Source: Bacteroidota bacterium (lineage in GTDB: Bacteria; Bacteroidota; Bacteroidia; Bacteroidales; Prolixibacteraceae). From it: a stretch of 64,000 nucleotides of DNA. The first letter of the stretch is position 1. Each line of letters starts with the position of its first letter. Position numbers and translations under genes: made by a program. The stretch lies in contig JAJRSD010000025.1 of NCBI GenBank assembly GCA_024278975.1, forward strand, positions 1 through 64,000, written 5' to 3'. The notes under the pieces were generated by a model that saw only the letters and a list, made by a program, of their open reading frames with translations, did no database searches and had not been told where the DNA came from. Shown here one piece after another: positions 22,441 through 44,624 of this stretch.

Positions 22441-22783
22441 AAAAGAGAATCTGCCGACAAGGAAAACTGTTGCTTGTTAAAGAAATTCACGTCCCTTAAA
22501 AGGGCTCATTTCATAAAGTTGTGGACTCACCATAAATTTCAGCTAATCTGTATAAGAAATTAATCCTTGTTTTAATGGATATTGGTTTCTGAGAAGGTGA
22601 TAAAAAACGAAGAGTTGGTTAATTTGTTTTAAATGATGTCTTAATCCTTGTTTTGCTGGATGTTGGTTTACGGCTCTATACCTGAGTTTATTCCGAAAGG
22701 TAAAAATAAAAAAATACCACAAAGAAATAAAGAAACACGAAATGCTCAATAACAGCGTTTTACGCTTAGTGTATTTTCTGAAA
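22441..22783. other. Non-coding trailer side of the CRISPR locus
   Basis: No gene is seen here. The stretch contains two degenerate CRISPR repeats (22557-22674), a short CCCTTAAAAGGG palindrome near 22493 and an AGCG/CGCT hairpin near 22754. Confidence 0.5.
22557..22674 (-). repeat. Two relic CRISPR repeats
   Basis: At 22557-22593 and 22638-22674 are diverged versions of the array repeat. Both keep TTAATCCTTGTTTT and a T-G-G-A-T core but differ over the last ten bases. A 44-base spacer-like gap lies between them. Degeneration is expected at the oldest, leader-distal end, so these mark the former end of a longer array. They are now cut off from the intact array by about 420 bases. Confidence 0.75.
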
Positions 22784-22864
22784 AGTCATCAGATGAATCA
22801 TTTAGCAGAAAGCACAGGAGATTCAAATCTGACAATCAGTTGGTTACAAATTCATCAGATGACT
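22784..22864. repeat. 81-bp palindrome-ended dispersed element, copy 1
   Basis: Begins AGTCATCAGATGAAT and ends ATTCATCAGATGACT, which form imperfect terminal inverted repeats. Each end also holds the palindrome TCATCAGATGA. The interior reads TTAGCAGAAAGCACAGG and CAATCAGTTGGTTAC. Nearly identical copies of the same length lie at 22913-22993 and 44483-44563. No protein is encoded. It looks like a small non-autonomous repeat of REP or MITE type. Confidence 0.75.
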
Positions 22865-22912
22865 AAAAATCTGTTTATTTACTTTTCGGAGTGGACACAA
22901 ATATGTCTGAAA

Positions 22913-22993
22913 AGTCATCAGATGAATCATTTAGCAGAAAGCACAGGAAATTCAAACCTGGCAATCAGTTGGTTACAAATTCATCAGATGACT
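22913..22993. repeat. 81-bp palindrome-ended dispersed element, copy 2
   Basis: Same ends and length as copy 1, with a handful of interior changes (for example AAATTCAAACCTGGC in place of AGATTCAAATCTGAC). About 45 bases after copy 1 are also repeated after copy 2 (TTTACTTTTCGGAGTGGACA), so this is a tandem duplication with a 129-base period. Confidence 0.75.
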
Positions 22994-23040
22994 AAAAATC
23001 CATTTATTTACTTTTCGGAGTGGACACATACTCTGTACTA

Positions 23041-23093: not shown

Positions 23094-24337
23094 GTCTTAA
23101 TCCTTGTTTTATTGGATGTTGGTCTTTCTCAAAAGTGGTTAAGGGCGCAAAAGTACGTGCCCGTTTAAAGTCTTAATCCTTGTTTTATTGGATGTTGGTC
23201 TTTCTCTTCAGGACAAAAAGCAGGCAATGTTGCAAACATTGAATGTCTTAATCCTTGTTTTATTGGATGTTGGTCTTTCTCGATTAAATGAGTTTTACCC
23301 CGTTGAATATAGCGGGAATGTCTTAATCCTTGTTTTATTGGATGTTGGTCTTTCTCTCCACGCAGTCGCAAAAGAGAATGAACAATTTTCATTGTTCGGT
23401 CTTAATCCTTGTTTTATTGGATGTTGGTCTTTCTCTTTGATAAAGGTGCTATTTGTTATGGAACAGAAAGTCTTAATCCTTGTTTTATTGGATGTTGGTC
23501 TTTCTCACAAATGCCGATAAGCCCGGCAAAATTAAAGGGTTTACTGTCTTAATCCTTGTTTTATTGGATGTTGGTCTTTCTCTTGCTCGTAAACAACTTG
23601 AAAAGGACGGGGTTACAGGTCTTAATCCTTGTTTTATTGGATGTTGGTCTTTCTCTTGGAGTAATTGTCGTAGCATGTATAGTCTTTTTAGCTATTTGTC
23701 TTAATCCTTGTTTTATTGGATGTTGGTCTTTCTCACCGCATGGTTAATTGGGATGGTTTCGCCGTTGCTCAGGAGTCTTAATCCTTGTTTTATTGGATGT
23801 TGGTCTTTCTCGATTTTACCGTTGTAGATATTACGACGGATGAGGGCGTCTTAATCCTTGTTTTATTGGATGTTGGTCTTTCTCACATTACCAAGTTATC
23901 AGGTGAAGACCTGAAAGCCTACGTCTTAATCCTTGTTTTATTGGATGTTGGTCTTTCTCCCAGCCATCGTGGTTGGCGTTAACGCCTTAACTGGCAGTCT
24001 TAATCCTTGTTTTATTGGATGTTGGTCTTTCTCATACCCAATTTAGTTCAAGGTTATCGGAGTTTTATCCGTCTTAATCCTTGTTTTATTGGATGTTGGT
24101 CTTTCTCTGCTAGCGACAAAAAAAAGGGAATGTTGCAGACACTCGCAGTCTTAATCCTTGTTTTATTGGATGTTGGTCTTTCTCTTAATAGTGTGAATTA
24201 TATAAGTAAGGAAGATGCAGGAATGCAGTCTTAATCCTTGTTTTATTGGATGTTGGTCTTTCTCTGTTTTGGGTTTAGCAATTGCCCTTTTTGTTCATCA
24301 GTCTTAATCCTTGTTTTATTGGATGTTGGTCTTTCTC
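23094..24337 (-). CRISPR. CRISPR array, 17 repeats and 16 spacers, transcribed leftwards
   Basis: Seventeen identical 37-base repeats start at 23094, 23170, 23245, 23320, 23399, 23470, 23546, 23619, 23698, 23775, 23848, 23923, 23997, 24071, 24148, 24228 and 24301. Spacers are 34-43 bases. On the plus strand a repeat begins GTCTTAATCC and ends GGTCTTTCTC. The crRNA strand is judged to be minus, because the repeat then ends in ATTAAGAC, matching the usual 8-base 5' handle position (ATTGAAAC-like). The degenerate repeats at the low-coordinate end support this, placing the leader at 24338-24478. The effector genes to the right are type III-A. Two spacers (23207-23244 and 24108-24147) are related to each other. 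Confidence 0.97.
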
Positions 24338-24478
24338 CCTACTATTTGTATTTTATTTATATTCAACTGTTTGTATCCTAAATTCTTTAAAATTGTGCTG
24401 TTTACTACTGTTTTTATTGCCATTTTTTGAGCCTGCAAAATTACCATATTTTTTATTTAAATATAATTATTTTTATCA
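24338..24478 (-). promoter_or_regulatory. Probable CRISPR leader
   Basis: About 140 bases, strongly AT-rich with T-runs, between the last intact repeat and the 3' end of cas2. It is the array flank opposite the relic repeats. It should hold the promoter for leftward crRNA transcription and the site where new spacers would be added. No exact Bacteroidota promoter box was recognised. Confidence 0.6.
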
Positions 24479-24949
24479 TTAAAAAAACAAAGTGTTTCTG
24501 TTTTTTGCAATTATATCAAAATCAATGTTTTGCCCCAATATTTTCATGGCACGCAGTTGGTCGGTCGATACCGGTACAAAAAAAATACTGTCGTTGTTTT
24601 CGTAGGTCTCCTGTACCTCTTTTAGGTCGCTAACAATTTGGTTATAAACATCGCGGGGGCTCTCGGCAAAAAATATCGATTTTTGTACCCGCTGGCACCC
24701 TTTTTTTATGAGGTATTTTGCAATAAGTGTTCTTATCTTATTGTTTTCAATATCGTACATAATAAAGTAGAGCATATCTCCGGCATTTAGTTTTGGTTTT
24801 GTTGTAATTTCTAAAATTATTTTTATTCTTTGGTCGAGGCTTTCCATGTTGTCGGGCGGGGTAATAATGTTTCCTGTTTTTCCTTCGAGCCCTGCACGGT
24901 GAATAAGCTTTATTTTTTCAACAAAAGTAAGATTTCTCTTTTTTTTCAT
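24479..24949 (-). CDS. cas2: Cas2 with N-terminal extension
   Basis: 156 residues from the ATG at 24949, which overlaps the stop of the preceding gene as ATGA. The Cas2 fold starts near residue 60 (MLYFIMYDIENNKIRTLIAK) with the conserved early Asp, followed by the strand KKGCQRVQKSIFFAE and the helix SPRDVYNQIVSDLKEV, and SIFFVPVSTDQLRAMKILG. Cas2 dimers hold Cas1 dimers together during spacer integration. The first 60 residues (RNLTFVEKIKLIHRAGLEG and on) are basic and extra to the usual 90-100 residue Cas2; their role is unknown. The gene lies against the leader, and no cas1 is found in the window. Confidence 0.82.
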   Translation of the reverse strand: MKKKRNLTFVEKIKLIHRAGLEGKTGNIITPPDNMESLDQRIKIILEITTKPKLNAGDMLYFIMYDIENNKIRTLIAKYLIKKGCQRVQKSIFFAESPRDVYNQIVSDLKEVQETYENNDSIFFVPVSTDQLRAMKILGQNIDFDIIAKNRNTLFF

Positions 24950-25518
24950 TCGTAAAGTGTATTGGTTAAAATATCGTGGCAGGTATCGGCAAGTTGGTTG
25001 TTCGATCCGTTTTTTGTTGTCTTTACAATGGTAAATCCTTTTTTTCCATAAAACAGATTTATTTCGGCCCAAATGTTTTTTACCGAAAATTTAAACTGCT
25101 TTCCGTAGCTGATGTTTTTTACTATTTCGGTTTTTATTCCGTATTCGTCCATGCTGGTTATAATTGTTTCAATAATCTGTTCCAGCTCTTCGGGTACATA
25201 CACTTTTTTTTCCCTTATCTTTTTAAGTTTAGGATTTAGTTTTTCTCTTATCTCTTTTAAAATATCGGTGGGGAGGTCTTGTTTGTCGAAATCTAAATTA
25301 TTCTTTTCGGTAGTAGTTATCGTATTTTTTAATGCTTCATCGCTTTTTTTTATGTCGAATTTTATTTCGGCTACTACCTCTTCGTTTTCAAAGTCGATTA
25401 GTTTATTCATGTCAACAGCAGTTGCATTTGGGTTAAAGTATGCGTTGGGGTCGTAACTAACAAAACATGCTCTGCTAACATCCGAGGTCGATTTATCGAT
25501 AACCTGTGTAAAATTATA
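24946..25518 (-). pseudogene. 5'-truncated CRISPR-associated primase-polymerase remnant
   Basis: The obvious start is an ATG at 25410 (MNKLIDFENEE), but the frame stays open upstream to a stop at 25519-25521. The extra residues read VIDKSTSDVSRACFVSYDP followed by NAYFNPNATAVD. D-x-S-R-x-x-F-x-S-Y-D-P-x-x-Y-x-N-P is characteristic of the end of the archaeo-eukaryotic primase domain in BT4734/VirE-N-type primase-polymerases. Such enzymes occur with cas1/cas2 in type III loci as CAPP. The catalytic part is missing, so only about 190 C-terminal residues remain, including ISYGKQFKFSVKNIWAEINL, a domain I cannot name. It is coupled to cas2 by a 4-base overlap, which supports a shared adaptation operon now eroded. 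A short functional protein from 25410 cannot be excluded. Confidence 0.6.
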
Positions 25519-25639
25519 TTATGTACTGATATTCAAAATGTTAAACGCCGATATGGCAACTATTGTAAGTTTCCCGATATTTTTTTGTCAGTTTTATACG
25601 TAAAAAGCAACAGACTTTTGTGTGAAAACAGAAAAATGT

Positions 25640-25653
25640 TACTAAATTTAGTA
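25640..25653. promoter_or_regulatory. Palindromic site upstream of cas6
   Basis: TACTAAATTTAGTA is a perfect 14-base palindrome 57 bases before the cas6 start and in the region shared with the divergent cas2 operon. It is followed by TAGCTAAAATAGCAGCTAAA, which repeats the A-G-C-T-A-A-A theme. A candidate operator for the effector operon; no known regulator is assigned. Confidence 0.35.
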
Positions 25654-25710
25654 GCTAAAATAGCAGCTAAAAACTAAAAAAAGGCAAACCACAACGAAAA
25701 GGCAAACACA

Positions 25711-26394
25711 TTGAAAAAAATAAAATTTCTCGATATCTCTTTCGAAAACGAAATCAATCCCTGGGAGGTGGAAGCTTTTCGGGGAGCCGTTGTTGCCACT
25801 GCCGGAAGAGACCATATACTTTTCCATAACCATAAAAAAGAGGGTTTTCGATATTCGTACCCTTTAATTCAGTACAAACGAATTGGCAAAAAACCACATA
25901 TTATTTGTATTGACGAGGGAGTTGACGAAGTTCACTATTTTTTCGAAAACAAACAGGAGGGTTTAATGTTGGGCAACCGGCACTACAACCTCGTGGTGGA
26001 GAACATAAACCTGAACAAGTTTAATCTACAGGTTTGGGATCGCTCTTTTAACTATGTAATTTACGACTGGTTTCCGCTAAATCAGAAAAACTTTAATGAG
26101 TTTAAAACCATTGTTTCCGAAATACAACAGTTCGAGTTTTTAGAAAAAATTTTAATCGGGAATATTTTGTCGTTTGCAAAGGGCATTGGCTGGAATATCG
26201 ACAAACAGATAGAGCTAAAAATAACCGAAATATTACGAACCAATATCATTAGTCTGAAAGGTACAAAGCGCGGAGCTTACACGCTGAATTTTAAATGCAA
26301 CGTTTTTCTGCCCAACTACATTGGTTTAGGCAAAAATGCAAGTTTGGGGTTTGGCTGGGTTCGCGAAAACAGGAGAAATAAGAGTGAGATGTAG
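25711..26394 (+). CDS. cas6: Cas6 crRNA-processing endonuclease
   Basis: 227 residues starting at TTG (MKKIKFLDISFENE); no ATG fits better. The protein is a two-RAMP-fold type with a C-terminal glycine-rich loop, YIGLGKNASLGFGWV, which matches the Cas6 G-x-G-x-x-x-x-x-G-x-G signature. It cuts the repeat in the array transcript to leave the 8-base 5' handle. A candidate catalytic His lies near residue 31 (GRDHILFHNH), but this is uncertain. First gene of the effector operon, 15 bases ahead of the original ATG of cas10. Confidence 0.85.
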   Translation: MKKIKFLDISFENEINPWEVEAFRGAVVATAGRDHILFHNHKKEGFRYSYPLIQYKRIGKKPHIICIDEGVDEVHYFFENKQEGLMLGNRHYNLVVENINLNKFNLQVWDRSFNYVIYDWFPLNQKNFNEFKTIVSEIQQFEFLEKILIGNILSFAKGIGWNIDKQIELKITEILRTNIISLKGTKRGAYTLNFKCNVFLPNYIGLGKNASLGFGWVRENRRNKSEM

Positions 26395-26448
26395 TTAAAA
26401 AAATAAACAATGAAAAATATACGACAACAAATTTATTAAGGTGCTTTA

Positions 26449-29028
26449 TTGCACGATATCGGAAAATTTTATCAACGTGCCGACAAGAAATTTTATGATA
26501 AGAAAAACGAATTGTCAGAATATTCAAAAAATATTCCTGAAGATATTTGTCCGATTAACGAACATGGTCGTTTTGGCTATCAGCATGTAATTTGGACAAA
26601 TGAGTTTTTTGAAAAGTTTAATGATAAATTACAACAAATACCAGGTGTGCAAGAAAATCGTTATGATAAATCGGATACAGATAATATTGTAACCTTTGCC
26701 TGCAATCATCATAAGCCGCAAACACTATTGCAATCGTTTATTACCATTGGCGACTGGTGGAGTGCAGGTATCGACAGGCGAAATGCAAATAAGGTTAATG
26801 AAAAAGATTATGCAGGAAAGAGTATTAATTGGGATAAAAACAGGTATAAAACAATTCCCTTATTCTCTGTTTTCAACACCGTAAATCCATATAATAACGA
26901 GGATAGAACATTTTCATCGGCAGCCTTTAAATTGAAACGTTTAAGTGTTGAAAGAGATGATATTTTTACCTCTCAGGTAAATAAGGTAGAAGATGGAATA
27001 TCCGAAAACGAGTACAAAAGGCTTTGGGATAATTTTGCTGAAGAATTTGAGATGCTACCAACAGACAGTTTCGATGGATTTACCGAAAGTTTATTGTATC
27101 TGTTAAAAAAATATACGTGGTGTATCCCATCAAATACTATGGATATGGCAAATGTAAGTTTATTTGAACATTTAAAAACTACAGCAGCTTTTGCCGATAG
27201 TATTTATACTTTCTATTCTGATGGAAATGCAGATAAATTTACGTTTAATAAAGTAAACAACAGGCTAACGGTAAACGACGGAGTTCATCCGGTTTTATTG
27301 GTTGGTGGCGATATTTCCGGCATTCAAAAATTCATTTATAATATTGCAAGCCAAAAGGCAGCCGTTAGCCTGAAAGGCCGTTCGTTTTACCTGCAATTAT
27401 TAATCGACTCTATAATTCAAAAGGTTATTACCCACGCTGATATAAAAGCCACAATTGGCCATGTAGTTTATTCTTCGGGCGGTAAATTTTATATGATTTT
27501 GCCTAATACTCAAAAAGTAAAAATAGCACTCAACAATATTAAAACAGAAATTGAAAAAGAACTTTGGGCTGAACATAAAGGGAAATTGGCAATAAACCTT
27601 TCGTATATCGGCTTTGCTTTTGTTAATAATGCCGATAATAAAATTTCTATCGAAGGCAAAACAAAAAATACAGATTTGGGAAATTTGTGGCGTTCGCTTG
27701 CCGAAAAACTAAATGCTCAGAAAAACCAGAAGTTCAAATCGTTATTAACGAGTAGTTTTTTTGAGCAAAATATAGTTGATGATAAAATAAAAATGTGTGC
27801 TGTTACCGGAGAAGAGTTAAAAAAAGGTGAATGGCAAAAACTAAAAGGAACCGATGAATACGTATCAAAAGCTGTTGCTCAACAAACAGAGATAGGAATT
27901 GCCCTGAAAGATGCAGATTACCTTATGACATACAGAAACCCAAAAGATGAGAGTAAATATTTAAGCAATCGCTCGCAAGCTCAGATAAAAGTTGTTGGAG
28001 TTGATAATTATATGTTCGATAAAATTGAATTAACCAAAGACGATGCTGATTTCAGACAAATTACATCGGCTGATGTAAGCCGAATAGTTTTGTTTAATAA
28101 CACAAACCCTTTAGCGGCAAAACTTAAAGGGAATGCCGTAAGTTACGGTTATCAGTTTTATGGCGGAAACAAACAAGCTGAATATTTAGGAAAAAACAGA
28201 ACTTTTGAAGAATTAACAGAAACAGAACGGGGCAATAAAGATTCCGAAACCTATCTTGGTGTGTTAAGAATGGATATTGACAATCTGGGAAATATCTTTA
28301 TAAAAGGGTTAAACGAAAAAGATAAAAGTTTTGCAGCTTATGCAACCATGTCGTTTCAGTTAGACCTGTTTTTTTCGGGATATTTGAATACGATTCGCAA
28401 TAATTACAAAGATTATGTAAATATCCTTTATTCAGGCGGCGATGACATATTTGCTGTTGGGCGGTGGGATAAGATTATAGAGTTTGCCGAAGATATCAGA
28501 ACAGAGTTTGCTGAATTTATTGGTCGTAACGACATTACAATTTCTGCTGGTATTGCAATTGTTCGAAATAAATACCCCATCGCAAAAGCTGCCGAAATGG
28601 CCGGCGAAGCCGAAGAATCCTCAAAACATTATAATAATGATGAGAAAAATGCCATTACTTTTTTAGGAGAAACAATATCATGGAAAAACGAATACGATGA
28701 AGTGAAAGAGTATAAAGATGAATTCGTTAGACTGATAGAGGAAGGATTGTCAAAAGGCTTATTACATAAAATAATGGAGTTTGCTGCTATTAAAAAAGCT
28801 AATGATGATTTTGAAAAGAGTAACGAAAAAGAAAAAATAGATTTGAGTTATAAATGGAACACGGCCTATTATCTGAAACGTTTTTCTGATAGAAATAAGA
28901 TGAATAATGAGATACAGTATTTCATTTCTAAGTTGCAAAAGGATTTGTTTGTTAACAATAGAGCTTACGATAAAATAGCCCTGGCAGCACGTTGGGCAGA
29001 ACTGCAAATACGTGAAATAGATAATTAA
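26449..29028 (+). CDS. cas10: Cas10/Csm1 with intact HD and GGDD, broken at codon 10
   Basis: The 859-residue frame opens at TTG 26449 (as M-HDIGKFYQRA). In the same frame an ATG at 26410 gives MKNIRQQIY, then TAA at 26437, then GALLHDIGKF, the canonical Cas10 N-terminus. The TAA therefore sits where a Leu codon (TTA) belongs. Domains from TTG: HD nuclease (H2-D3, with CNHHKP and GDWWSAGIDRR), first palm (LVGGDISGIQKFIYNIASQK), central region with CAVTGEELKKG, and second palm with YSGGDDIFAVGRWD, where GGDD at 663-666 makes cyclic oligoadenylate. It should act as the large subunit of the Csm complex, cutting DNA and signalling to the CARF nuclease at 40749. Translation may restart at TTG. Confidence 0.93.
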   Translation: MHDIGKFYQRADKKFYDKKNELSEYSKNIPEDICPINEHGRFGYQHVIWTNEFFEKFNDKLQQIPGVQENRYDKSDTDNIVTFACNHHKPQTLLQSFITIGDWWSAGIDRRNANKVNEKDYAGKSINWDKNRYKTIPLFSVFNTVNPYNNEDRTFSSAAFKLKRLSVERDDIFTSQVNKVEDGISENEYKRLWDNFAEEFEMLPTDSFDGFTESLLYLLKKYTWCIPSNTMDMANVSLFEHLKTTAAFADSIYTFYSDGNADKFTFNKVNNRLTVNDGVHPVLLVGGDISGIQKFIYNIASQKAAVSLKGRSFYLQLLIDSIIQKVITHADIKATIGHVVYSSGGKFYMILPNTQKVKIALNNIKTEIEKELWAEHKGKLAINLSYIGFAFVNNADNKISIEGKTKNTDLGNLWRSLAEKLNAQKNQKFKSLLTSSFFEQNIVDDKIKMCAVTGEELKKGEWQKLKGTDEYVSKAVAQQTEIGIALKDADYLMTYRNPKDESKYLSNRSQAQIKVVGVDNYMFDKIELTKDDADFRQITSADVSRIVLFNNTNPLAAKLKGNAVSYGYQFYGGNKQAEYLGKNRTFEELTETERGNKDSETYLGVLRMDIDNLGNIFIKGLNEKDKSFAAYATMSFQLDLFFSGYLNTIRNNYKDYVNILYSGGDDIFAVGRWDKIIEFAEDIRTEFAEFIGRNDITISAGIAIVRNKYPIAKAAEMAGEAEESSKHYNNDEKNAITFLGETISWKNEYDEVKEYKDEFVRLIEEGLSKGLLHKIMEFAAIKKANDDFEKSNEKEKIDLSYKWNTAYYLKRFSDRNKMNNEIQYFISKLQKDLFVNNRAYDKIALAARWAELQIREIDN

Positions 29029-29029
29029 T

Positions 29030-30049
29030 ATGGAATTGCAAGATATTAAATACAACGAATTCTTAACGGATATAAAACAGCGAATAATAGATGCTCAGTA
29101 TTCAGCCATGAAGTCTGTTAATAAAGAACAGATACAGCTTTATTGGAATATTGGAAAATCTATTGTTGTAAAACAAAGAGAGCTTGGTTGGGGAAAGTCA
29201 ATAGTTGAAGAATTATCTAAGGATTTACAAAGAGAATTTCCGAAACAAAAAGGTTGGTCTGCCAGAAATTTGTGGTTAATGAGACAATTCTATGAAACTT
29301 ATGCTGATAATAAATTTCTGCAACCATTGATTGCAGAAATTAGTTGGACTCATAATCAGTTAATTATGAGTAAATGCAAAGATGAATTAGAACGCGAGTT
29401 CTACATCCGAATGACCAAAAAATATGGTTGGACTAAAAACGTGCTTATTCATCAAATCGAGGGTAACTCTTATGCTCTGTATTTAACCAACCAAACTAAC
29501 TTTGAACAAACCCTTCCCAAAAAATATAAAGACCAAGCTATATTAGCGGTTAAAGATGAGTTTAGTTTCGATTTTTTAGGACTTGCAGATAAACATAGTG
29601 AACGAGAATTGGAACAAGCTCTGGTGAACAATATCAGACAATTTTTAATAGAAATGGGAGGTGAATTTAGTTTTATTGGTAACCAGTTTAAAATTGAAGA
29701 AAACGGCGATGAATATTTTATTGATTTGATCCTATTTCATCGAAAACTAAAATCATTGATTGCCATAGAACTTAAAGTTGGTGAGTTTATTCCCGAGTAT
29801 GCAGGAAAAATGCAGTTCTATTTGAATTTATTAAACGACAAAGTAAAATTGCCCGAAGAAAACCCAAGCATTGGTATAATAATTTGCAAATCGAAAAAAC
29901 GAACAAGAGTAGAATATGCACTCAAAAACGCGAAGCAACCTATTGGTGTTTCGTCGTATAACATTACAAACAAATTACCAAAACAATTTGAAGGCTTGCT
30001 TCCTTCTCCAGAGAAAATTGAAGAGAACTTAAAATTATTAGATAAATAA
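29030..30049 (+). CDS. DUF1016 (YhcG-type) PD-(D/E)xK nuclease inside the csm operon
   Basis: 339 residues. The N-terminal 170 residues match the YhcG helical domain (IQLYWNIGKSIVVKQRELGW, WSARNLWLMRQFYETY, ISWTHNQLIM). The C-terminal half is a restriction-endonuclease fold with FIDLILFHRKLKSLIAIELK, where D and E-x-K are the metal-binding residues, followed by YAGKMQFYLNLL. The start lies 1 base after the cas10 stop, so translation is probably coupled. DUF1016 genes are usual in restriction-modification and other defence islands but not known to me as a core part of type III-A operons. Whether it serves the Csm complex or is a passenger is open. A second, more distant member lies at 33959. 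Confidence 0.85.
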   Translation: MELQDIKYNEFLTDIKQRIIDAQYSAMKSVNKEQIQLYWNIGKSIVVKQRELGWGKSIVEELSKDLQREFPKQKGWSARNLWLMRQFYETYADNKFLQPLIAEISWTHNQLIMSKCKDELEREFYIRMTKKYGWTKNVLIHQIEGNSYALYLTNQTNFEQTLPKKYKDQAILAVKDEFSFDFLGLADKHSERELEQALVNNIRQFLIEMGGEFSFIGNQFKIEENGDEYFIDLILFHRKLKSLIAIELKVGEFIPEYAGKMQFYLNLLNDKVKLPEENPSIGIIICKSKKRTRVEYALKNAKQPIGVSSYNITNKLPKQFEGLLPSPEKIEENLKLLDK

Positions 30050-30080: not shown

Positions 30081-30497
30081 ATGTATCCACACGTAAAACT
30101 AAAAGAAAAATGGATTCAAGACCAAATTACCAGCGAAGCTGTTGAATGGTCTAAGTCCTTTGGTGAATTTTTGCAACAGGACGATAGTAGAAATAGAGGA
30201 ACTAAACCTCTTACAACATCACAGATTAGAAAATTCTTTGGAGAGCTAAAACGAATTCAGGCAGATCCTGAAAAGTACAAAGAAGAAATACCTATGCTTA
30301 AAGCAAAATTGGCGTATGCTGTCGGTAGAGATAAAAATAACAGAGGGCAATCATCATCAAAAATTGATAAATTATATGAAGAATTAGAAACTGGCTTAGA
30401 TGCAATTAGACCAGAGCATTTAAAAGAAGATGTGATAAGATTTGTAAAATTAATAGAATCAATAGTGGCATTTCACAAGTTCTACGGAGGAAAATAA
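30081..30497 (+). CDS. csm2: Csm2, small subunit of the type III-A complex
   Basis: 138 residues, mostly helical and charged, with PLTTSQIRKFFGELKRIQAD, the Csm2 signature, then PMLKAKLAYAVGRDKNN, and an end LIESIVAFHKFYGGK. Csm2 subunits stack along the crRNA-target duplex on the inner face of the Csm filament. Size and position, just before csm3, are standard once the nuclease insertion is set aside. Confidence 0.9.
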   Translation: MYPHVKLKEKWIQDQITSEAVEWSKSFGEFLQQDDSRNRGTKPLTTSQIRKFFGELKRIQADPEKYKEEIPMLKAKLAYAVGRDKNNRGQSSSKIDKLYEELETGLDAIRPEHLKEDVIRFVKLIESIVAFHKFYGGK

Positions 30498-30516: not shown

Positions 30517-31158
30517 ATGAGTAATAAGTTAATAAAAAAGATAAGAATAAGTGCTGAATTAGAAATTTTAACGGGTCTGCATATTGGAGATAGTTCTGAT
30601 AATGTTGAGATTGGAGGAGTAGATAATCCTGTTGTTAGAAGCACAATGGACAATGTTCCTTATATTCCCGGAAGTTCAATAAAAGGAAAAATCAGAAGTT
30701 TATTAGAACAAATTGCTGGCTCTGCAGAAGTAGGCGGTAATGATGAAATAAACAATTTATTTGGTTTTGCTAAAGAGAATAAATCATCAAAAATAATTGT
30801 TCGTGATGCTTATCTTAGTGATGATAGTAAGCAACAATTGGAATCTTCCGAATTTACCGATATGCCTTTTACTGAAATTAAACACGAAAATGTAATAGAG
30901 AGAATTACTGGAAAAGCCAAACACCCTCGTCAATCAGAGCGTGTGCCAGCTGGTGCTAAATTTAATGTTGAATTTGTAATTAATGTCTGGGAATCCGACA
31001 ATGGTGGAAAAGAGTTAATTTCCCTGTTTGAAAAAGGAATCGCAGCCCTAGAAAACGATTATCTTGGAGGTAGTGGTTCGCGCGGATATGGTCAGGTAAA
31101 ATTCGGCGAGTTAAAACAAGAAGTAATAGATTTTAAGGATTATCTTAAAACTGAATAA
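30517..31158 (+). CDS. csm3: Csm3, backbone RAMP and target-RNA nuclease
   Basis: 213 residues of Cas7-type RAMP. ILTGLHIGDSSDNVEIGGVD at the N-terminus aligns with the family block that bears the catalytic Asp; here it is Asp36. YIPGSSIKGKIRSLLE follows, and the glycine-rich end GGSGSRGYGQVKFG is the RAMP loop. Several Csm3 copies coat the crRNA and cut bound target RNA every six bases. With Asp36 present the RNA-cleavage activity should be intact. Two bases separate it from csm4. Confidence 0.93.
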   Translation: MSNKLIKKIRISAELEILTGLHIGDSSDNVEIGGVDNPVVRSTMDNVPYIPGSSIKGKIRSLLEQIAGSAEVGGNDEINNLFGFAKENKSSKIIVRDAYLSDDSKQQLESSEFTDMPFTEIKHENVIERITGKAKHPRQSERVPAGAKFNVEFVINVWESDNGGKELISLFEKGIAALENDYLGGSGSRGYGQVKFGELKQEVIDFKDYLKTE

Positions 31159-31160
31159 TT

Positions 31161-32168
31161 ATGACGAAGTTTAAAATATATAAACTCCGTTTTACCACAC
31201 CTTTACATATTGGCGATGAACGTGCCGATTATGGAACAAGTTTGCAGACCATACATTCCGACACACTATATGCTGCAATAACTTCTGTTTTGGCTAAAAT
31301 AAGCTATCCTATTCCTGATGATGGAGATTTTGGATTTTCAATAAGTTCACTGTTTCCTTATTATGAGAAAGATAAGAAGCCTGTTTATTTTCTGCCAAAA
31401 TTAAAATCGCAGACAATCCCCTCAAAAGACTTGCAGACTGTAGCCAAAAAGATAAAAAAGATTGAATGGTTAGATGTAGGGTTTTTCAATAAGCAGATAA
31501 ACGGAGAAGAGTTGTTTACTGATGGCTTTGACACCAATTTATTAGAAAACGGGAAATACCTCACAAAACAACCTATCGACAAAGAGTTTATTTCGAAAGA
31601 AGTAAACCCAAGGGTAAAAGTGTCACGGAATTTTAGTGAAGATGCCGAACCATTTTATATGGAACGCCTTTACTTTAAATATAAGTCGGGAATGTATTTT
31701 ATTGCTGTTGGCAATGACGAAAAATTAAAAATTATAGACACTGCCCTTAAAGTACTAAAAGATGAAGGCATTGGAACTGACAGAACTATTGGAAACGGAT
31801 TTTTTGAAGTCGATTCGGATTATATTGAATTAAATTTACCGAAGAGCAATAAGGTTTCTAACCTATCACTGTTTTTACCCGAAACCCAGAAACAAATAGA
31901 TGAACTTTTAAAAGGAGATAATATTGCTTACGACTTTCAAAAACGAGGAGGATGGATTACCGATTCGGGTTTAAATACTTTTAGAAAAAATACCGTTCAG
32001 ATGTTTTCTGAGTCATCTGTGTTTTTGCAAAATAAAAATGTAGAAAAGGAGTTCGTTTTAGGCAAAATTGTTGATTTAAAGCCAAAACTGAATTATGAGC
32101 ATTTAGGTATTGAAGCTCACCCAATTTGGCGAAGTGGTAAAGCTATTTTTATTCCGGTTAAAATTTAA
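31161..32168 (+). CDS. csm4: Csm4, 5'-handle-binding RAMP
   Basis: 335 residues of Cas5-type RAMP: KLRFTTPLHIGDERADYG, then IHSDTLYAAITSVLAKI (the S-D-T-L step typical of Csm4), EPFYMERLYFKYKSGMYFI and GIGTDRTIGNGFFEVDSDY with the glycine loop. Csm4 caps the complex, grips the crRNA 5' handle and contacts Cas10. The length and order are standard. Confidence 0.92.
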   Translation: MTKFKIYKLRFTTPLHIGDERADYGTSLQTIHSDTLYAAITSVLAKISYPIPDDGDFGFSISSLFPYYEKDKKPVYFLPKLKSQTIPSKDLQTVAKKIKKIEWLDVGFFNKQINGEELFTDGFDTNLLENGKYLTKQPIDKEFISKEVNPRVKVSRNFSEDAEPFYMERLYFKYKSGMYFIAVGNDEKLKIIDTALKVLKDEGIGTDRTIGNGFFEVDSDYIELNLPKSNKVSNLSLFLPETQKQIDELLKGDNIAYDFQKRGGWITDSGLNTFRKNTVQMFSESSVFLQNKNVEKEFVLGKIVDLKPKLNYEHLGIEAHPIWRSGKAIFIPVKI

Positions 32169-32173
32169 TTATT

Positions 32174-33829
32174 ATGAATGACCTGTTAAATAAGAAATAC
32201 AATCTCGAACTTGAAGTGCTTACTCCTCTTCATGTTGGAGCAGGACAAGAAAAGGATTGGATGAAAGGTGCCGATTACATTGAAGATGGCAATAAAATTT
32301 ATATTTTAAATCATAAAAAAATTGCCAAAGAAATATCGGCTAATGAGTTATCTAATTTTTTAGTAGAAAAAAATGATGAAGGCTTAAAAAATAAAATTTC
32401 CAGATCGTTAGAAGAAGTGTCGTATAAAGTATTTGAAAAAACCGCATCGACTGATAACGATATTAAAACTTTTATAAAAAACGGACTTACCAATAAACCT
32501 ATTGTTCCCGGGAGTTCCATTAAAGGAGCTATTCGGTCTATATTATTAAATTATTTCATCGATAATCCAAATAATATTGACCGAAGAGATAAAAGGTTTG
32601 AGGAAAAAGTATTTGGTTCGCCCAATAACGGCGATGAATTTATGCGATTTATCAAGATTGCTGATGCTCAATTTGATAAAACAGAATTGGTTAATACTAA
32701 AATATTTAATCTTTATAAAGATGATAATAACTTTAACGGAGGTTGGAAAAAATCAGGGAAACAAACGAATGCAAATTTTGATGCAACAGGATTCAATACT
32801 ATTTACGAAGTAATAAAACCCTCGGAAACGGGTGAATTGTCTATTGCTCTGTCTGATAAAGCATTTGATAATTTTTATAAAACTAGTAAACCTGAGAAAA
32901 AGAATGAAATACTTCATTCAGAGCCATCAAAAAAACTATTTGCAATTATCAACGAACACACAAAAAAATATATAAATAAACAGATAGCCTTTTTTGAAAA
33001 ATATGCTAATAACGAAACTGATAAAATTATAGATTCATTAAATGCGGTTTTATCTCAAATACAAAAAAACAATACTTCTTGCGTATTAAAAATGTCAGCC
33101 GGTAGTGGTTTTCACTCTATTACAGGTGATTGGCAATTCGATGATTTTTCGATTGATCAAGTAATTGATAAAACCAATAGAAAGGGTGATGTCATTGGGC
33201 ATATTTCCAAATTTAAAGGAGATATATCTGCCAAATCCCGAAAAATAGCAATTGATGGTGATGCTTTTTATTTAATGGGTTTCGTAAAATTAACTATCCT
33301 TTCAGAAGAATTAAAGGCACAACGAGAATCGGAAAGAGAGGCTAAGATAGAAGCTGAGCGTAAGATTAAAGCAGAAGAGTTGGCAAAAGAGAAAGCTGAG
33401 CAAGAGAGAATAAAAGCGGAACAAAGAGCTAAAGAAGAAGCTATACGCAGAGATGAGGAAGAAAGAATTGCAAACGAAAAAGCTGAACAGGAAGAAAAGG
33501 AAAGATTGCAGAAGGAACGTGAAGATAAATTAAAACAAGCACAGGAAGCTAATGCTGCTAAAAAAGAAGAATTAAAAAGCACAGGCTTACTAACTCTTGC
33601 TAATATAGATGAGTTCACTAAAGGAAAAAATATAATTAAGGATTATAAAAAGTTAAAAAAATCCATCGATTTATCACAGTTTGAATATATTAAAGATTTT
33701 ATCAAACGAAGTATTAATAAGGATAATAAGAAATGGAAGAGCGTGAAACGAGACAATTGGAAGGACGTTAAATCATGGGTAGGCCAAGAAACCGCCCAGC
33801 AATGGTACAATGAACTAAGCAACAAATAA
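32174..33829 (+). CDS. csm5: Csm5 with coiled-coil and extra C-terminal domain
   Basis: 551 residues, against about 350-400 for most Csm5. Residues 1-375 are the RAMP part: LEVLTPLHVGAGQEKDWMKG, then VPGSSIKGAIRSILLNYF and the end KSRKIAIDGDAFYLMGFVKL. Residues about 376-470 are almost entirely Glu, Lys, Arg and Ala (AQRESEREAKIEAERKIKAE and onward), a long charged coiled coil. Residues about 475-551 form a compact basic domain (ANIDEFTKGKNIIKDYKKLK, WKDVKSWVGQETAQQWYNEL) that I do not recognise. Csm5 sits at the crRNA 3' end and recruits trimming nucleases in characterised systems; the extension may be a docking arm. It starts 5 bases after csm4. Confidence 0.9.
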   Translation: MNDLLNKKYNLELEVLTPLHVGAGQEKDWMKGADYIEDGNKIYILNHKKIAKEISANELSNFLVEKNDEGLKNKISRSLEEVSYKVFEKTASTDNDIKTFIKNGLTNKPIVPGSSIKGAIRSILLNYFIDNPNNIDRRDKRFEEKVFGSPNNGDEFMRFIKIADAQFDKTELVNTKIFNLYKDDNNFNGGWKKSGKQTNANFDATGFNTIYEVIKPSETGELSIALSDKAFDNFYKTSKPEKKNEILHSEPSKKLFAIINEHTKKYINKQIAFFEKYANNETDKIIDSLNAVLSQIQKNNTSCVLKMSAGSGFHSITGDWQFDDFSIDQVIDKTNRKGDVIGHISKFKGDISAKSRKIAIDGDAFYLMGFVKLTILSEELKAQRESEREAKIEAERKIKAEELAKEKAEQERIKAEQRAKEEAIRRDEEERIANEKAEQEEKERLQKEREDKLKQAQEANAAKKEELKSTGLLTLANIDEFTKGKNIIKDYKKLKKSIDLSQFEYIKDFIKRSINKDNKKWKSVKRDNWKDVKSWVGQETAQQWYNELSNK

Positions 33830-33958: not shown

Positions 33959-35101
33959 ATGTCCAACCTGAAATCCATATCACCATTATATTCAACAATC
34001 CGTGAAATAATCAATGAGGCAAGGGCTTCGGTAAGCCGAACGGTTAACTTTGTTGTTGTTCTACAAAACTGGGAGATAGGCAGAGCCATAGTCGAGGAAG
34101 AGCAAAAAGGAGAAGCAAAAGCCGCTTATGGAAAATATTTGATCAAAGAATTATCGCTAAAGCTGATCGATGAATTTGGGAAAGGGTACAGCCAACAACA
34201 TTTAAAATTTTGTAGGCAGTTTTATAATCTTTACCCAATTGGTCACGCACTGCGTAGCCAATTGCAACCGGAAGAAAATAAACCTGATGGAAAAAGCTAC
34301 GCACTGCGTAGCCAATCAGGGGATTTTAGCTCTGAGGAATTATTATCGAAAAGCCACCCTTTATTTCAAATGCTAAGCCCAAAACTTACATGGACTCATT
34401 ATAGGGTTTTGTTAAGGGTTGAAGATGCTGATATCAGGGATTTTTATATCAAAGAGTCCATAATCAATAATTGGAGTTATAGGGCACTCGACCGTCAAAT
34501 TAAATCTTTGTATTACGAACGATTATTGTCTTCAAAGGAAAAACAGCCGGTTGTTGCCGAAATGATAGAAAACACAAAGAAACTACAAGCTGAAGATGTG
34601 CTAAAAGACCCTGTAGTCCTTGAATTTCTACAACTAAAAGAAAACAGGCACTATCTTGAGTCGGAACTCGAACAGGCATTGATAGATAAAATGAACGATT
34701 TTTTATTGGAACTTGGAAAAGGTTTTGCCTTTGTGGCACGACAAAAACGCATTTCGTCCGAAACAAAGGACTTCTATATTGATTTGGTATTTTACAATTA
34801 TCTGCTTAAATGCTTTGTACTTATTGATTTAAAAACGGAAGAGTTGAACCATCAAGATATAGGGCAAATGGATATGTACGTGCGCTTATACGAAGATAAA
34901 TATAAACCAAAAGGAGATAACCCCACCATTGGCTTGATACTTTGCACTTATGCCGATAAAACCATTGTGAAATACTCGGTTTTGAATGAAAGCAAACAAC
35001 TTTTTGCATCAAAATATAAACTTTACTTACCTAGTGAAAAAGAATTACGCGAGGAATTGGAAAGAGAAAGAAATCAAATAGAATTTAATATTAACAAATA
35101 A
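33959..35101 (+). CDS. Second DUF1016 (YhcG-type) nuclease
   Basis: 380 residues. YhcG N-terminal domain (VVVLQNWEIGRAIVEEEQKG, GYSQQHLKFCRQFYNLYP, LSPKLTWTHYRVLLRVED) and a C-terminal PD-(D/E)xK domain (FYIDLVFYNYLLKCFVLIDL then KTE; IGQMDMYVRLYED). The E-x-K step reads D-L-K here: Asp replaces Glu, a known tolerated variant. About 30 residues (near 95-120) are extra to the family, made of two near-identical pieces, H-ALRSQ and Y-ALRSQ, each encoded by a palindromic repeat (see 34245-34316). It follows csm5 by 129 bases that contain a gene remnant, and is followed by the small protein at 35106. Confidence 0.82.
   Translation: MSNLKSISPLYSTIREIINEARASVSRTVNFVVVLQNWEIGRAIVEEEQKGEAKAAYGKYLIKELSLKLIDEFGKGYSQQHLKFCRQFYNLYPIGHALRSQLQPEENKPDGKSYALRSQSGDFSSEELLSKSHPLFQMLSPKLTWTHYRVLLRVEDADIRDFYIKESIINNWSYRALDRQIKSLYYERLLSSKEKQPVVAEMIENTKKLQAEDVLKDPVVLEFLQLKENRHYLESELEQALIDKMNDFLLELGKGFAFVARQKRISSETKDFYIDLVFYNYLLKCFVLIDLKTEELNHQDIGQMDMYVRLYEDKYKPKGDNPTIGLILCTYADKTIVKYSVLNESKQLFASKYKLYLPSEKELREELERERNQIEFNINK
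34245..34316 (+). repeat. In-frame palindromic insertions within the DUF1016 gene
   Basis: ACGCACTGCGTAGCCAAT occurs at 34245-34262 and again at 34299-34316, exactly 54 bases (18 codons) apart, so both read in the same frame. Its core TACGCACTGCGTA is a 13-base palindrome in the second copy. The surrounding protein block is absent from the sister nuclease at 29030. It looks like a small palindromic element that entered coding DNA and duplicated without breaking the frame. Confidence 0.7.
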
Positions 35102-35105
35102 TATA

Positions 35106-35567
35106 ATGAACCGCTACATTCAACAACTAATAGAAGATTTCGACCGGGCAGGGAAAAAACCTGTGCCCGAAATTAATTTTGGCGAGAGCTACGAGGAGTT
35201 CGAAAAGCAAATGCATGAAATTGAGGAAGGCAAGCTTATACCGGCAAAAGAAAAAATAGGTGTAAGTTATGAGGAGCTGCCGCCGGCAGAAAAGATGACT
35301 GACGAACAAACTCAAAATCTTCTGGAAGCCATGCTAAATGCTTTGTCGGCACGAGGTACGGATATAACTTTTCCGGGCGATGGTATTCCTGTAAAACTGG
35401 CTTATACAGAATTGCGCAATCATTTTAAGGAGGGTTTTCACTCGATACCCGGTTGGGTTATTGATTTCTGTAGCGGTTGGTGCCCCGACTGTGCTTTTGT
35501 TGATTATTGTAGTACAAAAGATGATATTTGGACAAAAGATGAATTAGAAAAAGAGAAAGCTAAATAG
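35106..35567 (+). CDS. Small protein of unknown function with C-terminal cysteines
   Basis: 153 residues, acidic, soluble. It starts MNRYIQQLIEDFDRAGKKP and has a helical middle (MTDEQTQNLLEAMLNALSAR) and an end with four Cys: FCSGWCPDCAFVDYC, spaced C-x3-C-x2-C-x5-C, which could hold zinc or an iron-sulfur cluster. I know similar short Bacteroidota proteins of the MNKYIQQLLEDI type, none with an assigned function. It begins 4 bases after the second DUF1016 gene, so the two are likely co-transcribed; a stub of a similar gene lies just before that nuclease. Confidence 0.6.
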   Translation: MNRYIQQLIEDFDRAGKKPVPEINFGESYEEFEKQMHEIEEGKLIPAKEKIGVSYEELPPAEKMTDEQTQNLLEAMLNALSARGTDITFPGDGIPVKLAYTELRNHFKEGFHSIPGWVIDFCSGWCPDCAFVDYCSTKDDIWTKDELEKEKAK

Positions 35568-35849: not shown

Positions 35850-37052
35850 ATGAAAATACTTCACACTTCCGACTGGCATTTAGGACATCGCTTACACGAG
35901 CAATCGCAACAATACGAGCAAAAGGAATTTCTGGAATGGTTAATTCAGTTTGTTAGTACAGTCGAAATTGATGTGCTGCTTGTTGCCGGCGATATTTTTG
36001 ATACCGGGTATCCCTCGTCGCAAAGTATGGAGTTGTTTTATCGTTTTCTTGCCCAATTGTATCGCAACACACAATGCAAACAGGTAGTTATGACCGCCGG
36101 AAACCACGATGCTCCGGGAACAATAAACGCCCCGGGAAGTTTTGTCCGGAATTTCGATATAAGCCTTATCGGAAAAGCAACAGAAAATATTGAAGACGAA
36201 ATTCTCACCTTTGATATTGAAGGAGAAAAATTGATTGTTGCTGCCGTACCATTTTTACGCGATCGTGATATACGAAAAGCTATTGCCGGAGAAAATGTGC
36301 ATGAAATTGAAAATCGCTATAAAAAGGCTTTAACCAGTCATTATGCAGAAATTGCAACCCGAATTGACAAAAACAACCCTGCTTTTACAGTTGCAATGGG
36401 GCATCTTTTTGCTGTCGGCGGGCAACCAACCGAAAGCGAAAACAGGATTTACGTGGGCGGACTCGGCGATATTGCCGCTTCCGATTTTCCACTGGTTTTC
36501 GATTATGTTGCCTTGGGGCACTTGCATCGCCCACAAAAAGTTGATAAAAAAGAACATATTCGCTATTCAGGATCTCCCTATCCGTTAAGCTTTAGCGAAG
36601 CCGGACAGGTAAAAAAGGTAGTACTGATAGAGACCAATAACAGTGCGCTAAATTTGATAACCGAGATTGAAGTTCCCGCATTCAGGCAGCTTTATACAAT
36701 TAACGGAACAATGGAGCATTGCCGAGAACGATTAAACGAAATCTCGCAACACGACAACGAGACAGAACCGTGGGTTGAAGTTATATTAAACGATAACCAA
36801 CTCTCAACAAGTGCATATTCCGAGATTAATGAGATTATAAAAGAGTTGAACTTGAAAGTTTTGAAAGTTAGAAATTTAAGAAAAACCGGACAAAAAGGAA
36901 TCGAGCAATTGGAGGCCGAAGACAGACAACTTAACGAACTAAAACCCGACGATGTGTTTAAAAATAAGTGTGAACAGGAGGAGTTCAATCTCGCAGAAAA
37001 CAGTGAGATATTAGACGCTTTTTACGAAATATTATCTGAAATAAATGGATAA
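35850..37052 (+). CDS. sbcD: SbcD, nuclease subunit of the SbcCD (Mre11-Rad50) complex
   Basis: 400 residues with the Mre11 phosphoesterase motifs in order: TSDWHLGHRL (residue 6), LLVAGDIFDTG (46), MTAGNHDAPG (83), VAMGHLFAVGG (186) and YVALGHLHRPQ (220). With SbcC it opens hairpins and trims blocked double-strand DNA ends. The pair starts a four-gene run sbcD-sbcC-CARF nuclease-small Csx protein, with gaps of 12, 21 and 10 bases. That placement inside a CRISPR island is unusual for a housekeeping repair complex. Confidence 0.93.
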   Translation: MKILHTSDWHLGHRLHEQSQQYEQKEFLEWLIQFVSTVEIDVLLVAGDIFDTGYPSSQSMELFYRFLAQLYRNTQCKQVVMTAGNHDAPGTINAPGSFVRNFDISLIGKATENIEDEILTFDIEGEKLIVAAVPFLRDRDIRKAIAGENVHEIENRYKKALTSHYAEIATRIDKNNPAFTVAMGHLFAVGGQPTESENRIYVGGLGDIAASDFPLVFDYVALGHLHRPQKVDKKEHIRYSGSPYPLSFSEAGQVKKVVLIETNNSALNLITEIEVPAFRQLYTINGTMEHCRERLNEISQHDNETEPWVEVILNDNQLSTSAYSEINEIIKELNLKVLKVRNLRKTGQKGIEQLEAEDRQLNELKPDDVFKNKCEQEEFNLAENSEILDAFYEILSEING

Positions 37053-37064
37053 CCAATCCGCCTT

Positions 37065-40000
37065 ATGAAAATAGTAAAACTTGAATTACAAAATATCAAC
37101 TCAATAAAAACATCGACTCCGGTTACTATCGATTTTAACGACGAGATATTCCAGACAACCGGATTGTTTGCCATTACCGGGACTACAGGCTCTGGGAAAA
37201 CTACCCTGCTCGATGCCATAACTATTGCACTCTATCGCGAAGTACCACGATTTAATGCGTCGCATATTAAGCTAGGGCTAAGCGATGTGGTAAGCGAAGG
37301 GGCAGGCGAGGCAATGGCACGGGTAACATTCTCGAATAACGGGAAAATGTTTGAAGCATTTTGGAGCATTCGAACGAAATCTAAAAGTGGAAAGCTGCTC
37401 GGGAAACCACAGGAAACTGTTAGGTTGAAAGATTTGAATGAAAACAAAATAATTGCCGAAAAACTAACTGAATTCAATAAAAAAATAGAGGAAGTTACTC
37501 AACTGAATTACGACCAGTTTTTACGTTCGATGATGCTTGCTCAAGGCGAGTTTGCATCGTTTTTAAAAGCCAATAAAAAAAGTAAAGTTGAGTTGCTCGA
37601 CCAAATTATCGGAAACGATATATACAAACAAATTGGCTATTCGGTAGCCGAAAGAGTAAGTGCAGAAAAGAATAAACTTCAGGAAATAGAGCAGAAAATA
37701 AATACTGAAGATTTGTTAACGCAAGAGAAAAGGAGAGAGTTAGAGGAAGAAAAAAAGGGGGTTTTAAAAAATATTGAAACCATAAAAAAGGAGGCAGATG
37801 AATTCAACCGGATAATTGACTGGTATAAAAAAACTAGAGAGATTGAGAATCAGAAACAGTCGATAGAAAAAGATACGGATGAACTAAATAGAAACAGGCA
37901 AGAACAGAAAGGGGTATTAGAGGCTTTACTATTACATACCGAAGCTAAACCTTTCGAAAATTTACTTCGCGATCTGAATTCTAAAACAGGAGAATTTGCA
38001 GCAAAAGAAAAAGCGTTGAAATTGTTAGTGCCCGAAATAGAAAAGGTAAGAAAAGAATGGCAAAAGGCTCAAACCGAACTTGGTAAAAAGGAGAATTCTT
38101 TTAAGCAGGAAAAACAAAACAAAGATATATGGTCGCCAAAACTCGATACTGTTACCCGGCTCGACCAAAACATAATAAACCGTGCTGAAGTATTAACAAA
38201 TATTAAAACGCAAATAAAAAAGATTTATGAGGATATAAAGAGTCTGGAAACTGAACGGAAACAAAACGAAGAGAAAAAGACAAAAAATATTGCCGACTTA
38301 GCAGATGTTGAAAATTACCTGAATGAAAACCGCCCGGTTGCCGAGATTAGAGTTAATCTAAATACGTGGTCGGTTAGTTTAAATAGCCGTAAAATAAAAT
38401 ATGGTGCAAAACAAATTGCTGAGAAAGAGATTAAGAAATATAATTCCGAAATAGCGAGACTTGATAAAAGCATTGAAGAAAACAGGCAAAAGTTAATAGA
38501 AAAAGAGGGGCAGTTAGCAAGTATAAATAAAGTTATAATCGAGTTAAAAGAACAGCAAACTAAACTCGATGTGGCTCAATTAAATATTAGGCAAACTGCT
38601 TTAATTGCAAATAAAGAGTTACTAAAAGAGGGGGTAAGAATATCGACCGATTGGTTTGAAAAAAAACAGAGCGTAAAATATTCGGAGGAATTGATTAAAA
38701 TCTTTAAAGAAGAATTATCGAAAAAATCAGTTGAGTTAAAAGGGCTGGAAGGGAAAATATCTGCATCCGAAAAATTATTAAGCGAGATAGAACGAACTCT
38801 GGAGCTTGAAAAAAAAGTAAAAAGTCTGGAAGTAGAACGACAAAAGTTGCAGCAGAACGATGCCTGTCCGTTGTGTGGTTCAAAACACCATCCTTTCGTA
38901 ATAGAATATAACGAATTCGATTTCTCGGAAACAGAGAAACGGTACTACGAGCAAAATCGGAAGGTTGAAAAATTAAATAAAGAAATAGAGAACAATACAA
39001 GAGAGCAGTTGTTGGCGAATACAAAAATGGAAACCGAAAGCGATAAGATTAAAAGCCTTTCTGTTGAGATTAATAAGTTAAACGAAAATTTTGATAGATT
39101 AAAACTCGATATTTCAATTTTGGATAATACCGCAATAAATAGTGCATTTAATAAAACAGAACAGCAGTTGATTGAAGTTCAGGAAAATATCAGACAGGCC
39201 AATTTGCTTCAACAACAAATTGATGAAAATACTGAAAAAAGCTCCGGCGAATTGAGTTTATGTGGTAAACTGAGAGAAAAATTATCGGTTCAAAAATCAC
39301 AAAAAACAGGATTTGAAACAAACAGAATTGATAAGCAAAGGGTAATTGCAGATATCGAAAAGGAGTTGAACAATTTGGAAGAACGGATAGAAACCCAATT
39401 TACACCCTTCGGATTGCAACTACCTGAACCGGAATTAACTAATGGTTTCATCGAAGAGTTGACAAAGAATATTGAAGATTATTCGAAGAGAGAAGAACAG
39501 AAAAAAAATCTAAAAAGTGAGCTAAACGTTCTCTCTGTTAAAATTGAAGAGAATGAATCGCGAATACAGAATGATACTAAAACTAAAGGGGAGAAAGAGC
39601 TAACTTCAAAAAGTATTTCGGAAGAGTTAACCCGTACGAAAGAAGAGAGAAATACATTGCTTCCGTTGGAAATAAGTGTTGAAGCAAAGAGAGGGGAACT
39701 AAATAAAAAAATCGATAATGCGGAGAAAGAGGTGTACGATTGGAGGGAGAGAGTAAATAAATTGGAAGTATTATTAGCCGGGAAAAAATCGGAGCAAGAG
39801 GGCTTTAAAATTAGTTTAGTTTCATTAGCCAAAGCGATTGAAAAATTCAGTAGCAATTTGAATACTCAGCTGAAAGAAAGCCGTTTCTCGGATAGGAAAG
39901 AGCTTGAGCAGTCACTTTTAGATTATGAAACTGAAATGTCGTATAAAAAAATTAAAAAGTTATTAGATGATACACAAATTGCTATTCACACCAGAGAGAA

Positions 40001-44462: not shown

Positions 44463-44482
44463 ATAATGAGATCGCTATGAAT

Positions 44483-44563
44483 AGTCATCAGATGAATGGG
44501 TTAGCAAAAAGCATAGATAATTCAAACCTGGCAATCAGTTGGTTACATATTCATCAGATGACT
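44483..44563. repeat. 81-bp palindrome-ended dispersed element, copy 3
   Basis: The same length and ends as the two copies at 22784 and 22913 (AGTCATCAGATGAAT to ATTCATCAGATGACT), with the interior match CAAACCTGGCAATCAGTTGG. The downstream flank TTTACTTTTTGGAG also resembles TTTACTTTTCGGAG after the other copies, so the unit may extend about 30 bases further. It lies between the ThuA gene and the MFS gene. Confidence 0.75.
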
Positions 44564-44624
44564 ATATTTATATTTTTTACTTTTTGGAGATAACTCAATA
44601 AAATCTAATTAATAAAATTTTATT

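Follow-up and report, generated by a model that had tools for sequence, protein, structure and literature searches.

How does a type III CRISPR-Cas locus come to carry cas2 beside a fragment of a primase-polymerase, with cas1 missing, and can the array next to it still grow? The question is raised by the locus summarized in Table 1, where positions refer to the window, i.e., the whole stretch of 64,000 nucleotides analysed here. The explanation that we favor, and hold to be quite probable, is that of a type III-A locus in which a single deletion, probably recent, interrupted the CAPP_B operon (cas1, CAPP, cas2) and left a frozen and decaying system. The main reading of the original prediction, an eroded adaptation module, is real and supported, although the in-frame stop in cas10 had been overlooked. 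This would be the decay of a system whose kind is known, and the novelty is modest, consisting of the intact loci that explain the truncation, the cas10 stop and the likely identity of the tail domain.

Table 1. Features of the locus, with positions in the window.
Feature	Position	Strand	Basis
CRISPR array (37-nt repeats, 17 and all identical; 16 spacers, each 34-43 bases long), leader side facing cas2	23094-24337	-	strand inferred from repeat end and cas2 position
AT-rich stretch, presumed leader	24338-24478	-	position only, between array and cas2
cas2, N-terminal extension as in CAPP_B-linked Cas2 proteins	24479-24949	-	PF09827, 3e-14; 27 CAPP_B-linked Cas2 relatives
C-terminal remnant of CAPP_B (pseudogene)	24946-25518	-	NF040562 positions 152-335, E 2.5e-58; first start codon ATG 25410
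Tail domain, helix, four strands and helix, likely TBP/RnlA-N-like	24952-25194	-	AlphaFold2 model, Foldseek, Pfam on 30 tails
Junction, 192 bases in place of the CAPP front and cas1 of intact relatives	25519-25710	.	no cas1/CAPP similarity (best E 0.28)
cas6, TTG start versus ATG in four relatives	25711-26394	+	Cas6b domains; starts compared
cas10/csm1, in-frame TAA 26437-26439 (codon 10), HD and GGDD motifs downstream	26410-29028	+	TIGR02578, 2.3e-173
csm2	30081-30497	+	family matches
csm3	30517-31158	+	family matches
csm4	31161-32168	+	family matches
csm5	32174-33829	+	family matches
Card1-type CARF nuclease	40749-41894	+	PF23400, 1.5e-32; PF09002, 3e-16; CARF_PDDEXK models

A truncated CAPP_B beside cas2

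The minus-strand frame at 24946-25518 is stop-free over 190 codons and contains DKSTSDVSRACFVSYDP, AYFNPNA and ISYGKQFKF, and its earliest ATG, GTG or TTG is the ATG at 25410, which would give a protein of 154 residues. Profile searches of the extended frame place it clearly among the CAPP proteins: NF040562 (PrimPol_Db, CRISPR-associated primase-polymerase type B) matches it with E 2.5e-58 and 197.9 bits at profile positions 152-335 of 335, and the 154-residue part alone with E 6.6e-36 at positions 198-335. The score (198.6 bits in the genome search) lies just under the curated family cut-off of 200. A BT4734-like primase signature had been read upstream of 25410, and we recover it as the last 22 positions of PF08800 (BT4734-like_N, 113-134 of 134; 22.0 bits, the cut-off being 22.4), a domain that is covered nearly whole by the intact relative L005 (9.5e-16, profile 2-134).

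For comparison we used 30 other CAPP_B proteins, 29 of them nearly whole and one a fragment. The catalytic DxD (D86 and D88 of DbCAPP) and the SPxxxG(L/I/V)K motif are each present in 30/30 of these and missing from the remnant, whose frame begins past the DxD, and the second motif likewise precedes the break. A third conserved motif, D....D..R..F, is kept as DKSTSDVSRACF and is found in all 29 relatives covering that region, and the whole C-terminal tail is kept as well (151.1 bits against a profile of 30 tails, one of which is the remnant itself). The loss of the catalytic half, as originally predicted, is in this way confirmed at the level of profile and motifs. DbCAPP with D86 and D88 both changed is inactive, according to passages of the study describing it (Zabrady et al., 2021, PMC8211822); a primase-polymerase without the DxD would be unable to make DNA, and activity of the remnant is expected to be absent.

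The window copy and CAPP_B of the DbCAPP type (NF040562), as described in those passages, have the third motif, the full tail and the cas2 neighbor in common, and the type III-A locus seen here lies in the same bacterial order that holds the relatives found. It differs in that the front half with DxD and SPxxxGLK is gone, that cas1 is missing and that its score falls just short of the family cut-off. The retention of cas2, also part of the prediction, is plain, and its ATG overlaps the stop of the remnant by 4 bases; it is the sole cas2 match in the host assembly. We rejected a frameshift with the CAPP front half still present, as 25519-25710 is unlike cas1 or CAPP fronts, and a relocation of the front half within the genome, as NF040562 matches one place only.

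Loss of cas1 and the intact order in relatives

The absence of cas1 noted for the window extends to the whole host assembly, a draft of 4.65 Mb in 115 contigs and 99.62% complete, in which no match to PF01867 was found at E 0.001 (four candidates scored); of 14 control genomes, nine gave cas1 matches. Of the two genes that go with CAPP_B in its operon, cas2 adjoins the remnant and cas1 is absent from the assembly. For 27 of the 30 other CAPP_B proteins both genes were detected in the same locus, and the remaining three loci sit near contig ends: in L047, where no cas2 was seen, the CAPP frame stops 74 bases short of the contig end; in L055 the CAPP gene runs off the contig; and in L051, where no cas1 was seen, the CAPP frame starts 526 bases from the contig end, with cas2 about 3 kb downstream.

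Comparison with intact loci brought out four genomes with the divergent order of the window, namely G296 (L105), G284 (L107), G191 (L108) and G053 (L038), in which cas2, CAPP and cas1 point leftward and cas6 rightward, and which differ from the window in keeping cas1 and a whole CAPP. The G296 locus resembles the window further, its contig also carrying an array, cas10 and csm genes. From the residue that matches the start of the remnant to the start of cas6, these loci measure 1525, about 1640, about 1640 and 3041 bases, respectively, and the window 192. Since the intact divergent loci hold at least 1.3 kb more up to cas6, the joint loss of cas1 and the CAPP front would be explained by a single deletion of about 1.3 kb or more; it would have run from within CAPP, whose N-terminal half is lost, through the whole of cas1 and the gap before the divergent cas6. 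Nucleotide similarity of the window to four relatives stops at or before 25520. The junction itself is not repeated in the genome (next best match E 0.064), on which ground we rejected a repeated insertion element at this site. A Bacteroidetes-type promoter pattern was found 11 times in the window, a number equalled in 14 of 100 shuffles, and not in the junction.

In many other loci the effector genes, a RecD-like helicase, cas1, CAPP and cas2 all lie on one strand. As many relatives thus have their adaptation genes co-stranded with csm or cmr, a false join of contigs or strain variants, with loss of the piece carrying cas1, could also have created the inverted order of the window, and the 115-contig state of the draft and the position of the cas10 stop, 0.9 kb from the junction, would suit such an assembly or binning artefact. 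We nevertheless consider it unlikely, as the same divergent order is intact in four other genomes and as an assembly of this completeness holds no cas1 and no second NF040562 match. A deletion in the genome itself thus remains our preferred reading. Another type III locus of the same family, in G500 (L073), is like the window in that cas10 and csm genes are present and the assembly gave no match to cas1, and differs in that no CAPP or cas2 piece lies beside it in the stretch read.

Age and rarity of the truncation

With the fragment L055 dropped, 29 relatives gave 24 columns conserved in 90% or more of them, and the remnant keeps all 24; leave-one-out on the relatives gave 21 to 24 columns kept of 24 or 25. 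When the identity of the remnant to the 27 relatives having a Cas2 was set against Cas2 identity, as calibrated on 351 intact-locus pairs, the mean residual was -0.005 with a scatter of 0.048. From these sequence comparisons the remnant looks free of excess decay, and the cut therefore looks recent, or else the tail is still under selection. Identity across the remnant is 54% even for the nearest relative, so that no date can be put on the event.

NF040562 was matched in 20 of 61 relatives (E 0.001), in 21 of 393 genomes of the order (1e-25) and in 10 of 140 genomes of the family (1e-22), three sets that overlap, and at the last two thresholds weak tail-only copies could escape. At these thresholds the three sets yielded no second tail-only CAPP. 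A short protein conserved alone in relatives, one of the two findings named in advance as refuting the prediction, was thus not seen, and we rejected that candidate. Two copies consist of the front only (G358 and G456), each at the end of its contig. With the tail as the sole query (E 0.001, 393 genomes of the order) we obtained 22 places: 20 at CAPP loci with frames of 334-368 residues, the window, and the C-terminus of one helicase.

The array and the effector genes

No copy of the array repeat was found outside this array, and at the far end of the array two degenerate repeats are found. Comparison of the array with phage records gave no target match, and neither did a search of viral contigs with three spacer-derived patterns (parts of 4 of the 16 spacers). 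Two spacers far apart in the array, 23207-23244 and 24108-24147, have 23 of 27 bases in common, perhaps reflecting related invaders. A 123-base tandem repeat at 22777-23028 (also at 44478-44589), situated where the degenerate CRISPR repeats give way to the perfect ones, belongs to a dispersed family with at least 40 places in the genome, the window included, that have parts of the stretch 22777-23028 in common.

The identity of all 17 repeats, as in a lately active array, counts against our explanation, and so do the remnant frame and cas2, both open and undecayed, which makes selection on both possible. The array could still be growing through a Cas1 from a plasmid, a phage or a contig outside the assembly: some CRISPR-Cas loci without acquisition genes cooperate with another type, according to one report (PMC8092290), and four of the five relatives checked have two cas1 matches each. 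Given an assembly without cas1 and with a single cas2, and a repeat found nowhere else, we regard such outside help as very unlikely. Of the two fates originally proposed for the array, inability to grow and service by a distant cas1, the first probably holds, and for the second no distant cas1 was found in this assembly.

The remainder of the locus identifies it as type III-A, with cas10/csm1, csm2-csm5, the array and a cas6 with Cas6b domains. The frames of csm2-csm5 and of the Card1-type nuclease are open and their family matches good. In cas10, which starts with the ATG at 26410, the frame is open for 862 codons after the stop and there contains the HD and GGDD motifs, and three relatives (G484, G016 and G443) are unbroken at the codon-10 site. 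A TTG at 26449, just before the HD motif, could serve as a restart of translation. Two genes for YhcG/DUF1016 PDDEXK nucleases lie between cas10 and csm2 (29030-30049) and after csm5 (33959-35101), and SbcD- and SbcC-like genes (35850-40727) are located downstream of the csm genes and ahead of the gene for the Card1 nuclease. A 153-residue protein of no known function, encoded at 35106-35567, has a 58% identical relative in the type III locus of G287 (L102, 10673-11212).

If the operon was cut as we suggest, new spacers could not be integrated, the integrase Cas1 being gone, and with the DxD gone no DNA would be synthesized by the primase-polymerase. Because Cas1 and the DxD are both absent, Cas2 and the CAPP tail would probably be leftovers, and the memory stored in the 16 spacers would be frozen, though perhaps still usable by Csm and Card1. 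Such use by the effectors is doubtful, because the stop at codon 10 of cas10 demands a restart of translation.

The tail domain

The retained C-terminal part had been put forward as a candidate for an unnamed adaptation domain; we find instead that intact CAPP_B proteins ordinarily end in this tail, the fold of which is likely TBP/RnlA-N-like. In the AlphaFold2 model, residues 111-190 of the remnant are confident (block means 83-92) and form a helix, four strands and a helix, and residues 1-82, the leftover catalytic part, lie nearly all below 50 and are predicted to be almost wholly disordered. Searching the PDB with this model, Foldseek placed RnlA chains at ranks 1-4 and 6 (E 5.7e-3 to 3.9e-2), and with a model of the intact L005 at ranks 1-5 (E 4.5e-3 to 1.8e-2), modest E-values for models whose alignments contain four sequences. 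The tail profile did not find RnlA among PDB sequences, and sequence searches of the PDB gave nothing relevant. When the 30 tails were scanned singly against Pfam, TBP-TOTE was matched by 17/30 (best 1.2e-4), RnlA_toxin_N by 12/30 (best 5.8e-4), p55_CTD by 5/30 and bPH_4 by 3/30, all at E up to 1 and among related sequences, so that the matches are not independent. PF22721 (TBP-TOTE) is described as a TATA-binding-like domain, and the N-terminal domain of RnlA is one that we take to be TBP-like.

The CAPP_B tail is thus similar to the RnlA N-terminal domain (PF19417; PDB 4i8o) and to TBP-TOTE in predicted fold and, weakly, in profile, and on these two grounds we think it likely that it has a TBP-like fold. 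The tail of the window differs from RnlA in matching PF19417 at 0.0014, short of the cut-off, in having no PF22721 match listed and in lacking an RnlA context. Of 101 stretches that fitted a pattern in a search for viral relatives of the tail, none was confirmed, and in the open-licence library searched we found no paper on TOTE with TATA-binding, primase or conflict, or on a TBP-like domain in CRISPR primase-polymerases.

The helicase found in the tail-only search, which had also come up when NF040562 was run against the 61 relatives, is RecD-like (L033, 3-1805; G053:C289); its C-terminus resembles the CAPP_B tail (E 3.4e-5) and matches TBP-TOTE (3.9e-5). It is a single case, and the rest of its contig is without match to the cas references used. 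In the passages of the DbCAPP study cited above (PMC8211822), the smaller C-terminus of DbCAPP is said to be diverse, and two-hybrid tests are reported in which Cas1 bound DbCAPP as well as a RecD-like helicase. Because of these two-hybrid results we guess that the tail module could dock Cas1 or hold DNA. That it is a TBP-like module common to CAPP_B and, in at least one genome, a RecD-like helicase, possibly a Cas1-docking or DNA-holding part, and that it here stands alone with Cas2 in a role free of Cas1, is as a whole highly improbable in our estimate.

We are as doubtful that the tail protein and Cas2 have been retained for a joint role that does not involve Cas1, such as DNA binding or regulation by the two together. 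Such a pair would account for the 190-codon open frame, the overlap with cas2 and the full set of conserved columns, and the tail is predicted to fold alone; it sits poorly with the disorder predicted for nearly all of the leftover catalytic part, with the lack of a start codon ahead of 25410 and with the lack of a second tail-only CAPP in the genomes searched.

Conclusion

The fold suggested for the tail makes a test possible, namely of whether the tail binds Cas1 or DNA. The locus itself would be a CAPP adaptation operon half deleted by nature, and would indicate that a single event can cost a type III system the making of memory and leave its array and effector genes in place.
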